The notes under the pieces: model-generated
Databases searched by the model: none
What the model was told of the DNA's origin: nothing
What the model saw: only the letters and a program-made list of their open reading frames with translations
Assembly (NCBI RefSeq): GCF_000285835.1
Contig: NZ_HE978609.1
Location: forward strand, 51,870-115,869
Direction of reading: 5' to 3'
DNA: 64,000 bases
Source: Brevibacterium senegalense
Lineage (GTDB): Bacteria; Actinomycetota; Actinomycetes; Actinomycetales; Brevibacteriaceae
Program-made: the position numbers and the translations under genes
In this document: positions 21,200-25,903 of the stretch, in pieces
Layout: every line of letters begins with the position of its first letter
Numbering within the stretch: the stretch's first letter is position 1

Positions 21200-22894
21200 A
21201 TGTCGGCTCACTCATCGGACGTGCTGGTCATCGGGGCCGGTCTGTCGGGGCTCGTCGCCGCGACCGAGGCCTGCGAGGCGGGCGCCACTGTCACGCTCCT
21301 CGACCAGGAGTCAGAGGCGAACCTGGGTGGGCAGGCGTACTGGAGCTTCGGTGGTCTCTTCCTCGTCGATTCGCCGGAGCAGCGTCGCATGGGGATCCGC
21401 GATTCGCGCGAGCTCGCCGCCCGTGACTGGTGGGGGTCCGCGCAGTTCGAGGACCACGACGCGAATCCCCGGCAGTGGGCGGAGGCCTACCTCGACTTCG
21501 CGGCCGGCCCCAAGCGGGAATGGCTCCACGGCATGGGCGTGCGCTTCTTCCCCATCGTGGGGTGGGCGGAGCGCGGGGACGGGACCGCGCACGGACACGG
21601 CAACTCCGTCCCCCGCTTCCACATCACGTGGGGCACCGGGCCCGGCATCCTCGCACCGTTCGTGGCCCGTGCGAAGGAGCACATCCGTGCCGGTCGCCTG
21701 CGCGTTCACTTCCGGCACCGGGTGACCTCCCTGGTGACGGAGGCGGGCCGGGTGACCGGGGCCTCGGGAACGGTGCTGGCGGAGGACCCCGCGGCGCGCG
21801 GGGTGGCGAGCTCACGGGAGGTCGTGGGCGACTTCGATCTTCGGGCCGGGGCCGTGATCGTGACGAGCGGCGGGATCGGCGGCAACCACGACATGGTGCG
21901 GGCGCAGTGGCCGCAGCGGCTGGGGACTCCCCCGGCGCGGATGCTCACGGGGGTGCCGGCGTACGTCGACGGCTCGATGATGCCGATCGCGCAGGCTGCC
22001 GGCGCGCACATCCTCAACCCGGATCGGATGTGGCACTACGTCGAGGGGATCGGGAACTGGGACTCGGTGTGGCCGGGCCACGGGATCCGGGTCCTCCCGG
22101 GACCGTCGTCGCTGTGGATCGACGCGGAGGGGCGGAGGCTGCCCGACCCGGCGTTCCCCGGCTTCGACACGATGAGCACCCTGCGGCACCTGCGGGGCAC
22201 GGGCCACGACCACTCGTGGTTCATCCTCACCCAGCGGATCATCGAGAAGGAGTTCGCGCTGTCCGGATCCGAGCAGAATCCGGATCTGACCGGGAAGTCT
22301 GTACGACAGCTGGCCGGCCGTCTGGGCTCCGGCGCGCCGGCGCCCATCGAGGCGTTCCTGGAGAACGGGGAGGACTTCGTGCGCGCGGATTCCGTGGAGG
22401 AGCTGGTCGCGGGGATGAACGCAGTGGTGGCGCGGGAGTGGGATGAGACTGGTGCTGGTGGTGCTGGGGACGCCGGACCAGTGAGGCTGGATCCGGGGCG
22501 GATCGCGGATCTCATCGCGGAGCGGGACGCGCAGGTCGACAACCCTTTCAGCAAGGACCGGCAGATCCAGGCGATCCACGCGGCGCGCGGCTACCTGGGT
22601 GACAAGATCATGCGGGCGGTCGCGCCGCACCGACTGACGGATCCCGCGGCCGGACCGCTCATCGCGGTGCGCCTGCGGGTGCTCACGCGCAAGACCCTGG
22701 GCGGACTGCACACGGACCTGCAGGGGCGGGTGCTGGGTGCGGCGGACGGCTCGGTGGTCGAGGGGCTGTTCGCGGCGGGCGAGGCCGCCGGCTTCGGCGG
22801 TGGCGGTGTGCACGGGAACAACGCCCTCGAGGGCACGTTCCTGGGCGGCTGCCTGTTCTCCGGGAAGGTGGCGGGCCGCGCGGCCGCGGGGTGA
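21200..22894 (+). CDS. FAD-binding dehydrogenase (fumarate reductase/KsdD-like flavoprotein)
   Basis: Flavoprotein of 564 residues. The N-terminal Rossmann motif DVLVIGAGLSGLVAATEA binds FAD, SFGGLFLVDSPEQRR and FHITWGTGPGILAPF are typical of the predicted-oxidoreductase family related to 3-ketosteroid dehydrogenases, and the C-terminus has EAAGFGGGGVHGNNALEGTFLGGC, the second FAD contact. The ATG at 21200 is favoured over earlier starts by GGAGG 7 nt upstream. Substrate unknown. It ends about 45 nt before the repeat-flanked unit at 22940. Confidence 0.82.
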   Translation: MSAHSSDVLVIGAGLSGLVAATEACEAGATVTLLDQESEANLGGQAYWSFGGLFLVDSPEQRRMGIRDSRELAARDWWGSAQFEDHDANPRQWAEAYLDFAAGPKREWLHGMGVRFFPIVGWAERGDGTAHGHGNSVPRFHITWGTGPGILAPFVARAKEHIRAGRLRVHFRHRVTSLVTEAGRVTGASGTVLAEDPAARGVASSREVVGDFDLRAGAVIVTSGGIGGNHDMVRAQWPQRLGTPPARMLTGVPAYVDGSMMPIAQAAGAHILNPDRMWHYVEGIGNWDSVWPGHGIRVLPGPSSLWIDAEGRRLPDPAFPGFDTMSTLRHLRGTGHDHSWFILTQRIIEKEFALSGSEQNPDLTGKSVRQLAGRLGSGAPAPIEAFLENGEDFVRADSVEELVAGMNAVVAREWDETGAGGAGDAGPVRLDPGRIADLIAERDAQVDNPFSKDRQIQAIHAARGYLGDKIMRAVAPHRLTDPAAGPLIAVRLRVLTRKTLGGLHTDLQGRVLGAADGSVVEGLFAAGEAAGFGGGGVHGNNALEGTFLGGCLFSGKVAGRAAAG

Positions 22895-22939
22895 GGCGGA
22901 AGGAGCTCCTCCGCTCCTCCCGCAGAAGGACACCCAGTT

Positions 22940-22991
22940 CGCACTTCTCTACCGTTGTGCGTACGAGCATTCCCGCACATCGCGAGAATCG
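22940..22991 (-). repeat. 52-nt structured repeat, copy a (minus orientation)
   Basis: Read on the minus strand it begins CGATTCTCGCGATGTGC and ends GGTAGAGAAGTGCG. It aligns over its length with copies at 23033, 24598 and 24681. Ends TTCTC and GAGAA can pair, and an internal TGTGCG/CGCACA inverted repeat is present. Confidence 0.7.
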
Positions 22992-23032
22992 TTGGGCCGG
23001 GCGCGCGATTGCCTGACCGCCATCTTCCACAA

Positions 23033-23085
23033 CGCACTTCTCTACCGTTCTACGAGCGAGCATTCTCGTACTTCGCGAAAGTCGA
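23033..23085 (-). repeat. 53-nt structured repeat, copy b (minus orientation)
   Basis: On the minus strand it reads TCGACTTTCGCGAAGTACGA and ends GAACGGTAGAGAAGTGCG. It is a direct repeat of copy a at a 93-nt step and shares the CGCGAAGTACGA core with copies c and d. Its internal stem is TACGAG/CTCGTA, different from copy a, which suggests conserved folding. Confidence 0.7.
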
Positions 23086-23250
23086 TTGACGCCCAGGCCA
23101 GGCGCTCGCACCGCCTGCGACCCCGAAGCGTCACACGCAGTGCCTGTCACGGACAGCCTCGCGCACAGACAGCTGTGAAGACGCGAGTCGCCTTCCACAT
23201 CCGACCGTCTGAGCTCACGCCCACTTCGACGCACGTCCACGGTTGTCCGC

Positions 23251-24429
23251 ATGCACAACGTGATCACTGCTCGTACCTGCACCCGCTTTGGCATCTCACC
23301 GACGACGGTGAGGAATGCTCTCCGCTGCTGCCTCCGGAAACTGAACCACGGCATCTACGTGGGAATCGTCCGGTGTCCGCGGCACCCGGAGATGGCTCAA
23401 TTCTTGGACGACGACGAGATCCTCGCGATCCGCTCGGCAGGGATCGACCGCGCGACACGCGCCGACATCGACCGAGTCCGAAGAAGCGAGTTCCTCGCCA
23501 CCATCAGCGCCTACAAGCGTTACGACGACGGTGACACTCTGGGTCTGACCTCAGCAGCGGTTCTCCACGGGATTCCGCTGGTCGGATCCACAAAGGCTTC
23601 CGGACCTCGCATCCGCAGACGACCTGGCCCACAGCAGGAGGTCGTGTCGACCTTGTCCCTGGGCGAACCTGGCACACCCGTGCATCTGGACGTCTGGAAT
23701 CCCATTCGCCCCTATCGGTCGACGTGGATCACCCGCAGATTGTCTGACGTGGACCCGCGCCACCTCACGCAGATGCGTGGTGTCTCAGTCACCACCCAGG
23801 CGCGCACGTGTGTCGATCTCGCGCGGGCAGGGACCGCCTTCGATGGCACAGTCGCGATGGACTTCGTCCTGGCCCAGGCACTGGAGAGCGGCGGAGTCGA
23901 GGAGCGAGAGCGCGTGCATCGAGCGCTCCTGGAGTGCGTCGGCCAGGCGGATCGCACCCCGGGTGTGAGGCGAGCGCGCATCGCCTTCGAAACGGCGACC
24001 GGTCTGTCGGAGAGCGTCGCAGAGTCCCTGGCACTGCACTGGTTCCGCGTCCTCAAGGTCACACCCGTTCAACAGCAGGTCGAGCTCTACGACGACGTGA
24101 ACGAGTTCGTCGGCCGCGTTGACTTCCTCCTCACAGCGGAGGACGACACCCCTGTCGTCGTCGAGATCGATGGTGCCGTGAAATACGACGAACGAACACT
24201 GGTGCTGGCGGGCGGCGCGCCGTATGGCGAAGCAAGACACGGTGGCAACGGCGATCTGTCGAAGTCCGGAGGAGGAGCAGGGACGCGCAACCCGCTCTTC
24301 CGCGAGAAGCTGCGCGAGGACCGTATCCGACGCCTGGGCTATCGGGTCGTGCGAGTGACGTGGAAGGACCTCATGTCGGACATGAAGATGATCCTGCTGC
24401 TGCGCGAAGCGGGGGTCGAGATGTGGTGA
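23251..24429 (+). CDS. AbiEi-type HTH / DUF559-like nuclease-fold protein
   Basis: Protein of 392 residues of a type common in actinobacteria. The N-terminus (residues 1-40: ARTCTRFGISPTTVRNAL then KLNHGIYV) looks like the winged-helix of AbiEi antitoxins. The C-terminal third has a Vsr/DUF559-like PD-(D/E)xK pattern: VDFLL near residue 289, VVVEIDGAVKYDE near 300-312 and REKLREDRIRRLGYRVVRVTW near 350-370. No AbiEii toxin gene is adjacent. The gene and its flanks are visibly less GC-rich than their neighbours. It is enclosed by the repeat pairs a/b and c/d in opposite orientation. The ATG at 23251 gives the expected N-terminus but lacks an obvious ribosome site. Role unknown. Confidence 0.7.
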   Translation: MHNVITARTCTRFGISPTTVRNALRCCLRKLNHGIYVGIVRCPRHPEMAQFLDDDEILAIRSAGIDRATRADIDRVRRSEFLATISAYKRYDDGDTLGLTSAAVLHGIPLVGSTKASGPRIRRRPGPQQEVVSTLSLGEPGTPVHLDVWNPIRPYRSTWITRRLSDVDPRHLTQMRGVSVTTQARTCVDLARAGTAFDGTVAMDFVLAQALESGGVEERERVHRALLECVGQADRTPGVRRARIAFETATGLSESVAESLALHWFRVLKVTPVQQQVELYDDVNEFVGRVDFLLTAEDDTPVVVEIDGAVKYDERTLVLAGGAPYGEARHGGNGDLSKSGGGAGTRNPLFREKLREDRIRRLGYRVVRVTWKDLMSDMKMILLLREAGVEMW

Positions 24430-24597
24430 GGCGCGTCGAGGGTGAGCGTGACCCGGCGGCTTGAGTGGCTGACGGGTCACCTGCTCGCGCGGCCGTCTGA
24501 GCGAGGAGCACACAGCGCGGGGGCCGCACGTGCGAGGAGCCGACGGGTCGCGGACTCGCTCCGAATGCAGGGGTCCGGGCGGCAGGGGGTCCGGGAA

Positions 24598-24649
24598 CGA
24601 TTCTCGCGAAGTACGACAAAGCACTCGCGAACATTGCAAGAGAAGTCGC
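24598..24649 (+). repeat. 52-nt structured repeat, copy c (plus orientation)
   Basis: It begins CGATTCTCGCGAAGTACGAC and ends AAGAGAAGTCGC. It matches copies a and b in inverted orientation across the intervening gene. The ends CGA-TTCTC and GAGAAGTCG can pair. Confidence 0.7.
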
Positions 24650-24680
24650 ATGTAGATGAGCCTCTATGCGGCTCGGAAAC

Positions 24681-24730
24681 TACGTTCGCGAAGTACAACA
24701 ATCTTTTCACGCACTTCGCGAGAGAACCGC
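24681..24730 (+). repeat. 50-nt structured repeat, copy d (plus orientation)
   Basis: It begins TACGTTCGCGAAGTACAACA and ends CTTCGCGAGAGAACCGC, a direct repeat of copy c at an 83-nt step. TCGCGAAGT and ACTTCGCGA form a perfect 9-bp inverted repeat within it. Confidence 0.7.
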
Positions 24731-24790
24731 ACTATGGGGCGAACGGCATTGGCCGCCGGGACCCTCCCGGGACGCCGAGAGCGCCTCCCC

Positions 24791-25903
24791 CTACCCCAAC
24801 CCCGCCAGGTACTCGTCCAGCTCCCGTGCGATCGCCCGGCCCGCGCGGTTCGCCCCGATCGTCGAGGCGCTGGGCCCGTAGCCCGGCAGGTGCACGCCGT
24901 GGTTCTCGACCGCCCGGGTCGTCGCGCGCCCGTCCACCAGCAGACCGCCCTCCGGCGTGTGCAGGTCCAGAGGCGCCAGGTGATCGAACCGGTGGATGAA
25001 CCCTGTCGCCCACAGGATCACGTCGACGTCCAGCCGTCCGTCCTCCGGCACCGCACCCCAGGCCCGCGGCACCTCCGGGTCCCACACGACACCCGCCCGA
25101 TCGATCCGGTCGAACATCGGCCGGCACCGCGGCAGCGCGTCCGAGCTCACCGCCGCGATCGGCAGCCCCGTGTTCGACACGACGGACCCGGGCGGCAGCC
25201 CCTGCCGCACACGCTCGGCCACGCGGGCGACGACGTCCGCGCCCACCTCGGGGGTGAACTCGGCATTGCGGATGTCCGGCCGCGACCGCGACACCCATGA
25301 CGTCCGCGTGACCTGCGCCAACTCCCCCAGGTGCTGCACTGCGGAGATCCCCGCGCCCACGACCAGCACGTGCGAGCCTGCGAAGTCCTCCGCCCGCGTG
25401 TAGTCGCGCGTGTGCAGCTGCCGCCCCTCGAAGCTCGCGATCCCCGGGTAGTACGGGATCCGCGGCCGATCCCAGGTGCCCGTCGCGTTCACGATCGCCC
25501 GCGCGCGCAGGGTGTCCGCTGGCCGCCCGTCACCGGACAGCGTCAGCACGAAGTCCGTGCCCCCGCCGTCCGGCTGTTCGACCCGATCGACCGTGACTGG
25601 CCGCAGCACGCCCAGCCCCATTCGCTCCTCGTACGCCGCGTAGTACCGCGCGACCGTCGAGGCCGCCGGCACCTCGTCATCGACGTCGATCGCCTCCCGC
25701 AGTCCCCAGCCGGGCAGGTCCGCGACCCCGTTCGCGGTCTTGAGCGTGAGGCTGGGCCACCGGTGCTGCCACGCACCGCCCGGCCCGGCGTTCGCATCGA
25801 GCAGCAGCATCCGCTCGGCGGGCTCATACCCGCGCCTCATCAGGTGATACGCAGCCGAGAGCCCCGCCTGCCCCATCCCGATGACGACCACATCGACTCT
25901 CAA
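24791..25903 (-). CDS. FAD/NAD(P)-dependent oxidoreductase (flavin monooxygenase-like)
   Basis: Two-dinucleotide-fold flavoprotein of 370 residues. The FAD motif VVVIGMGQAGLSAAYHL is at the N-terminus, GGAWQHRWPSLTL is the second FAD contact, a central GSHVLVVGAGISAVQHL binds NADPH, and LWATGF is the C-terminal ATG motif of the CzcO/monooxygenase group. The TTG start at 25903 is chosen because GAGGAG lies 8 nt upstream and overlaps the stop region of the AAA ATPase gene, so the two genes are coupled. Substrate unknown. Confidence 0.82.
   Translation of the reverse strand: MRVDVVVIGMGQAGLSAAYHLMRRGYEPAERMLLLDANAGPGGAWQHRWPSLTLKTANGVADLPGWGLREAIDVDDEVPAASTVARYYAAYEERMGLGVLRPVTVDRVEQPDGGGTDFVLTLSGDGRPADTLRARAIVNATGTWDRPRIPYYPGIASFEGRQLHTRDYTRAEDFAGSHVLVVGAGISAVQHLGELAQVTRTSWVSRSRPDIRNAEFTPEVGADVVARVAERVRQGLPPGSVVSNTGLPIAAVSSDALPRCRPMFDRIDRAGVVWDPEVPRAWGAVPEDGRLDVDVILWATGFIHRFDHLAPLDLHTPEGGLLVDGRATTRAVENHGVHLPGYGPSASTIGANRAGRAIARELDEYLAGLG

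Follow-up and report, generated by a model that had tools for sequence, protein, structure and literature searches.

The locus and its repeats

We have focussed on a 64,000-nt stretch of the Brevibacterium senegalense genome (contig NZ_HE978609.1, positions 51,870 to 115,869), referred to here as the window, and within it on a gene with an AbiEi-like and a Vsr/homing-endonuclease-like part that lies between two oppositely oriented pairs of an imperfect palindrome, the R1 repeat family. The window genome (3.43 Mb) is designated G000, other G-numbers are the compared genomes and L-numbers are fetched loci. The pairing of genes of this family with cognate palindromes is real and recurrent, most of the members tested being bracketed by matching, lineage-specific sequence, often palindromes of ~58 bp. 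The features of the window locus are the following.

22935..22994, minus strand: repeat copy a, R1 imperfect palindrome, upstream bracket (covariance model, 70.5 bits; repeat search)
23028..23087, minus strand: repeat copy b, direct partner of a, step 93 nt (covariance model, 69.4 bits)
23251..24429, plus strand: AbiEi-like/Vsr-homing-endonuclease-like gene, 392 amino acids (open reading frame, ORF; PADLOC AbiEi; AlphaFold2 model)
23251..24006, plus strand: AbiEi-like part, residues 1-252, with conserved C26, C27, C42 and H45 near its start
24013..24420, plus strand: nuclease-like part, residues 255-390
24595..24654, plus strand: repeat copy c, downstream bracket, inverted with respect to a/b (covariance model, 64.8 bits)
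24677..24736, plus strand: repeat copy d, direct partner of c, step 82 nt (covariance model, 54.8 bits)

An earlier note on this DNA had described four repeats in two opposed pairs with steps of 80-95 nt, and the R1 covariance model places all four (E 3e-21 to 7e-16, the four being part of its 19-row training set). Aligned gap-free, they form an imperfect palindrome of ~54 nt, and an unaided repeat search recovers a/b (52 nt, 83% identity, step 93) as well as the inverted arms a/c. Folded as single-stranded DNA, copies a (z -2.55) and d (z -1.94) do better than their shuffles. Over the 19-copy alignment the arms pair in 72.3% of cells, vs. 69.7% when shuffled and at most 53.2% when slid, and the covariation score is 0.161 vs. 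0.120, altogether a modest folding signal.

The gene between the repeats had been read as joining an AbiEi-type part to a Vsr/DUF559-like nuclease core, and this reading has held. PADLOC calls the protein AbiEi-like (best E 1.4e-5), the Pfam AbiEi_1 model gives E 0.11, under the cut-off, and the AlphaFold2 model has a predicted local distance difference test score (pLDDT) of 84.5. In this model residues 1-252 are predicted to adopt the AbiEi antitoxin fold and the C-terminal domain (residues 255-390) a Vsr/homing-endonuclease-like one, with D291, E305, D307 and K311 as candidate catalytic residues. The Cys-Cys...Cys...His arrangement at residues 26, 27, 42 and 45 (23326-23385) is nearly invariant in 20 relatives and may be a metal-binding site of the AbiEi-like part. 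Where a source gives the family a label at all, it is mostly hypothetical protein or AbiEi antitoxin.

Bracketing of family genes by cognate palindromes

Our initial view was that gene and repeat are unrelated, given 13 gene-free sites and orthologs in G030 and G002 lacking R1. It was dropped because the flanks of both these orthologs carry palindromes of their own. Hairpins of the same type stand on both sides of the gene in G002, G064, G031, G003, G005, G014, G020 and G032, and most of these eight genomes have their own hairpin sequence type. We express bracketing as a score, the best local match between the 600 nt upstream and the 600 nt downstream of a gene, with a pass at 36. In a first batch of 71 family genes from the genus (70 from protein-search matches plus L145), 45 of the 70 testable ones reached this level, vs. 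none of 148 control ORFs (maximum 33) from 20 stretches of 20 kb that were placed arbitrarily by hand, not randomly drawn. When the upstream flank of one lineage was set against the downstream flank of another, only 7 of 1602 combinations reached 36, the maximum of 318 among them probably reflecting overlapping fetched DNA. By lineage, 20 of 28 in this batch had a passing member. Later loci from the same matches passed in 13 of 16 and 13 of 19 cases, bringing the genus total to 71/105, a count that includes orthologs; L193, L253 and L324 (flank too short) and L280 (no ORF match) had been left out beforehand. Owing to the divergence of its copies, the window gene itself scores only 33; the score of the G017 ortholog is 32, and the brackets of both rest on covariance-model matches.

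The situation is similar beyond the genus. A 20-member profile finds the protein family in 143 of 149 genomes of another actinobacterial family, that of G052. Taking the best 30 loci there, one per genome, 21 of the 28 testable ones reach 36 and 16 reach 50; of 100 control ORFs taken from 20 of these genomes, 2 reach the lower value and none the higher. Of four additional loci, drawn from three families of the order, L249 (82) and L252 (78) pass while L250 (32) and L251 (33) fail. The earlier suggestion of a nuclease-like gene with palindromes of its own, in the manner of RAYT/REP, is thus borne out as far as bracketing is concerned.

What matches on the two sides of a gene is often a palindrome, its letters being particular to the gene lineage. 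Taking the best palindrome per 400-nt flank of the 105 genus genes, a strong one was present in 75 of 210 flanks (39 upstream, 36 downstream) vs. 11 of 300 control flanks, and on both sides of 25/105 genes vs. 0/150 controls. Its span was 54-60 bp in 42 of the 75, despite sequences that differ between lineages. Among the shared upstream segments, 24 of 45 beat all 50 shuffles as palindromes. Read by eye, GTAG, which in REPs marks the foot of the hairpin, lies 3' of many R1 copies and at the end of the type found at locus L048, but other types lack it. A further palindrome family (CTGCCCGAGTC..GACTCGGGCAG) occurs in L316 and L317, in the slot orthologous to L312:4899. Short tandem arrays adjoin the gene-flanking hairpins at L137:4546-4980 (G030) and L138:2850-2950 (G002), with units of 17-18 nt and 11 nt.

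Dispersed copies and the cognate gene

Three lineages were searched across whole genomes, and in these the palindromes lie scattered among intergenic slots, mainly in genomes that have the cognate gene. For R1, DNA searches followed by the covariance model (built on 19 copies) gave, once the strands had been merged by hand, 25 copies at 15 intergenic sites of G000, leaving out one weak match (G000:C6:137532, 19.3 bits). They form ten pairs and five singles; nine pairs have a step of 82-83 nt (for example C3:353333/353416 and C5:224969/225051) and a/b one of 93, and the orientation is direct in 9/10 and ambiguous in 1/10. Since the family returns at 13 further sites in the genome, chance repeats can be set aside; a known RNA family was likewise discarded, as there is no Rfam match up to E 1 across 22400-25300. 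The earlier note had named copies at gene-free sites as a sign against any link with the gene. Taken literally this is what we see, as 13 of the 15 R1 sites are away from it, but two other palindrome types follow their cognate gene, and gene-free sites are not decisive against pairing because REP-type repeats disperse. Of the 12 classifiable sites outside the window, 7 lie in convergent, 3 in divergent and 2 in tandem gaps, compared with 38, 38 and 103 of 179 control gaps from genus stretches (convergent excess p 0.008, both sets of gap classes resting on simple ORF calls).

R1 matches were found in 7 of 59 genomes, with many rows in G000, G015 and G017 and one each in G002, G016, G030 and G055. 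The G017 ortholog is syntenic, 69% identical and flanked by a single R1 copy on either side. No R1 copy accompanies the syntenic ortholog in G030 or the ortholog in G002; the former has its own palindrome upstream only and fails the two-sided test (score 26). One exact R1 pattern, searched against genome contigs, returned three contigs, all from one B. senegalense metagenome-assembled genome (records near G000 were possibly left out), and the same pattern gave no match among viral contigs. At L066:1500-1650 (G000:C4:265679) a tandem repetition, in units of ~34 nt, involves the 3' half of an R1 copy together with its tail, and L133 and L052 have similar duplicated tails. Short-read contigs end at or near the repeats (G015 C150 end and C307 start, G017 C190 and C132 starts), so that cognate genes can be absent from draft assemblies.

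For the palindrome of the G002 type, G002 has 22 match rows and G064 has 12, and the remaining 55 genus genomes that were searched have none; the corresponding gene lineage was seen only in these same two genomes (the protein search covered 37 genus genomes). The L048 type is far more widespread, with matches in 30 of 57 genomes and 74-96 first-look candidates in each of 13 of them, 16 candidates being scored per genome. Within G001-G036, 15 genomes have at least ten rows and nine of these hold an L048-lineage gene with that bracket. Four of the other six were examined via further gene matches, and all four have an L048-related gene with the same bracket (L323-L326 in G006, G029, G027 and G025, with 62-64% identity to L048; the downstream copy in G029 reaches the end of its contig), an outcome that we expected but had not recorded as an expectation beforehand. 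The 1,191 kb of sequence fetched from 34 genomes contain 18 copies of this type away from family genes, all in the 436 kb that come from genomes with the lineage and none in the 755 kb from the rest; several of these 18 are a single site seen in more than one species. In this small sample most other lineages showed bracketing copies only, so that dispersal is not shown to be general.

Evolution and mobility

An alignment of the two outer flanks was possible for 73 of the 153 pairs within lineages. In these the median identity was 87.0% for the flanks and 74.5% for the gene, which was the less conserved in 59 of the 73. In other words, the gene evolves faster than the syntenic DNA around it. 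The idea that gene and repeats hop together as one unit is not supported, as no genome among the loci fetched has two members of one lineage and at least 73 of the 153 pairs are syntenic on both sides. A single intergenic slot can hold different families. One such slot is occupied by the L048 type in G001, G007, G011 and G013, by an L178-like palindrome in G027 and by yet another palindrome in G023 and G029; in G010 we recognised none.

In G016 the two flanking genes are 147 nt apart with no gene between, a gene-free syntenic locus, and here there is no inverted repeat with arms of at least 14 nt, only a shorter terminator-like hairpin. Clean empty sites with a target-site duplication, as expected of a MITE or insertion sequence, were sought and none was found, all comparisons but that of G000 with G015 being too diverged.

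The genes neighbouring the window locus are a FAD-binding oxidoreductase upstream and, downstream on the opposite strand, a flavin oxidoreductase/monooxygenase-like gene. No AbiEii/DUF1814 toxin adjoins it, Pfam finding FAD and flavin enzymes and an AAA ATPase among the neighbours, in agreement with the absence of a toxin partner noted earlier.

What the pairing may represent

We slightly favour the view that gene and palindromes form one co-evolving pair, in which the enzyme spreads the palindromes in the manner of RAYT/REP. The AbiEi-type part would bind the palindrome as two inverted half-sites of ~23 bp, the homing-endonuclease-type part would nick or cut at or near it, and break repair or replication would then copy palindromes into other intergenic sites. 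The bracket would hold the gene next to its own sites, and the scattered palindromes would be non-autonomous offspring, the whole working as in RAYT/REP with an unrelated enzyme. More tentatively, and with somewhat less than even confidence, Actinobacteria may possess a widespread and undescribed class of system, selfish or domesticated, in which a homing-type nuclease guided by its AbiEi part recognises, cuts and disseminates palindromes of its own (~58 bp). Each lineage would have re-invented recognition and palindrome together, and one genome could hold several such pairs in competition for the same intergenic slots.

Several observations weigh against a gene that spreads its own palindromes. 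The claim that the repeats are structured holds for copies a and d, but b (z 0.76) and c (z 0.21) fold no better than shuffles; 21 of the 45 shared upstream segments are no better palindromes than their shuffles, and 34 of the 105 genus genes fail the bracket test. In some genomes palindromes were seen where no cognate gene was: G008 and G033 have at least ten L048-type rows and no such gene among the loci fetched, and G002 has one R1-type copy without a gene of the R1 lineage. G015 has ~27 R1 model matches (some perhaps one copy at two contig ends) and no ortholog in its assembly, although the status of the gene there is undecided because contigs stop on both sides of the locus, at window positions 22788 and 24800. 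The three L048-type sites common to eight, four and four genomes reveal no recent hop, and the one close empty site, G000 vs. G015, differs by an indel of ~280 nt that shows no duplication. Finally, the low identity of the gene could come from loss of constraint.

There are other possible explanations. The AbiEi-type part could be an autorepressor and the brackets its operators, with dispersed copies as regulon or sinks, a separate job for the nuclease, and palindromes that the protein does not move. AbiEi and Rv2827c autoregulate via inverted repeats of this size (PMC7319586), and lineage-specific palindromes fit the co-evolution of operator and repressor. However, a matching copy stands downstream of the gene too, R1 away from the gene favours convergent gaps (7/12 vs. 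38/179), where promoters are unexpected, and the roughly 75-95 first-look L048-type candidates per genome, seen in 13 genomes, are many for a regulon, so that we consider this explanation unlikely. Alternatively, the palindromes could be recognition or protection marks of a defence nuclease, distinguishing self from non-self or marking phage targets, and their dispersal would serve immunity. The AbiEi-type annotation with its PADLOC matches and the rapid, arms-race-like change of both gene and palindromes are what one would expect in that case, but the copies sit in intergenic slots instead of being evenly spread, phage contigs lack the one exact R1 pattern and there is no partner gene, all of which makes a defence role rather improbable.

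The last alternative, which we regard as highly improbable, is that the palindromes owe their spread to another transposase or to replication slippage and that the genes merely occupy slots rich in REP- or terminator-like repeats. The preference of R1 for convergent gaps and the occupation of one slot by different palindrome families are both compatible with this. It leaves unexplained, however, the lineage-specific brackets (7/1602 across lineages vs. 45/70 within, controls 0/148). A Y1 transposase as owner of the palindromes in G000 was ruled out, as PF01797, present in 5 of 14 control genomes, is absent from this one; no other transposase family was covered by the search.

Relation to known systems

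The organisation resembles that of RAYT/REP, with the defining enzyme absent and folds common to AbiEi and homing endonucleases in its place. Three sources (PMC3116915, PMC8266576, PMC3733652) describe for RAYT/REP an enzyme gene beside its own palindromes, intergenic dispersal, co-variation of repeat and enzyme, and an enzyme gene mostly inherited in place, all of which have their likeness here. The differences are in the enzyme, predicted to combine AbiEi and Vsr/homing-nuclease folds instead of being a HUH Y1 transposase, in the length of the palindromes (54-60 bp commonest, vs. 20-40 bp for REPs) and in the doublets of one family, direct here (R1) and inverted in REPINs. With AbiE type IV toxin-antitoxin systems the locus shares the predicted fold of residues 1-252, and AbiEi binds inverted repeats of similar total size (PMC7319586). 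It differs in having no adjacent nucleotidyltransferase toxin at the window locus, in its added nuclease domain, and in matching repeats on both sides of the gene along with dispersed copies. The predicted catalytic fold is Vsr-like, as in the EDxHD homing endonuclease I-Bth0305I and Vsr endonucleases, but here the gene is free-standing, intergenic, palindrome-bracketed and joined to an AbiEi part. Unlike TnsA of Tn7, it has no TnsB/TnsC-type partner among the adjacent window genes, and no clean transposon ends were seen. In literature searched by title, with few subscription papers covered, we found no account of an AbiEi-nuclease with cognate palindromes.

For REP palindromes the enzyme partner that has been described is the RAYT transposase, and the CGTC class of REPs is reported to be without any (PMC3733652). 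Our results set beside RAYT an unrelated nuclease family with cognate palindromes that are similar in size and change freely in sequence. If the proposed reading is true, it would give a role to a large unnamed gene family and provide many natural enzyme-site pairs for studying the evolution of DNA recognition. It would also represent a second, independent origin of REP-like repeats, and with it a testing ground for ideas on their function.
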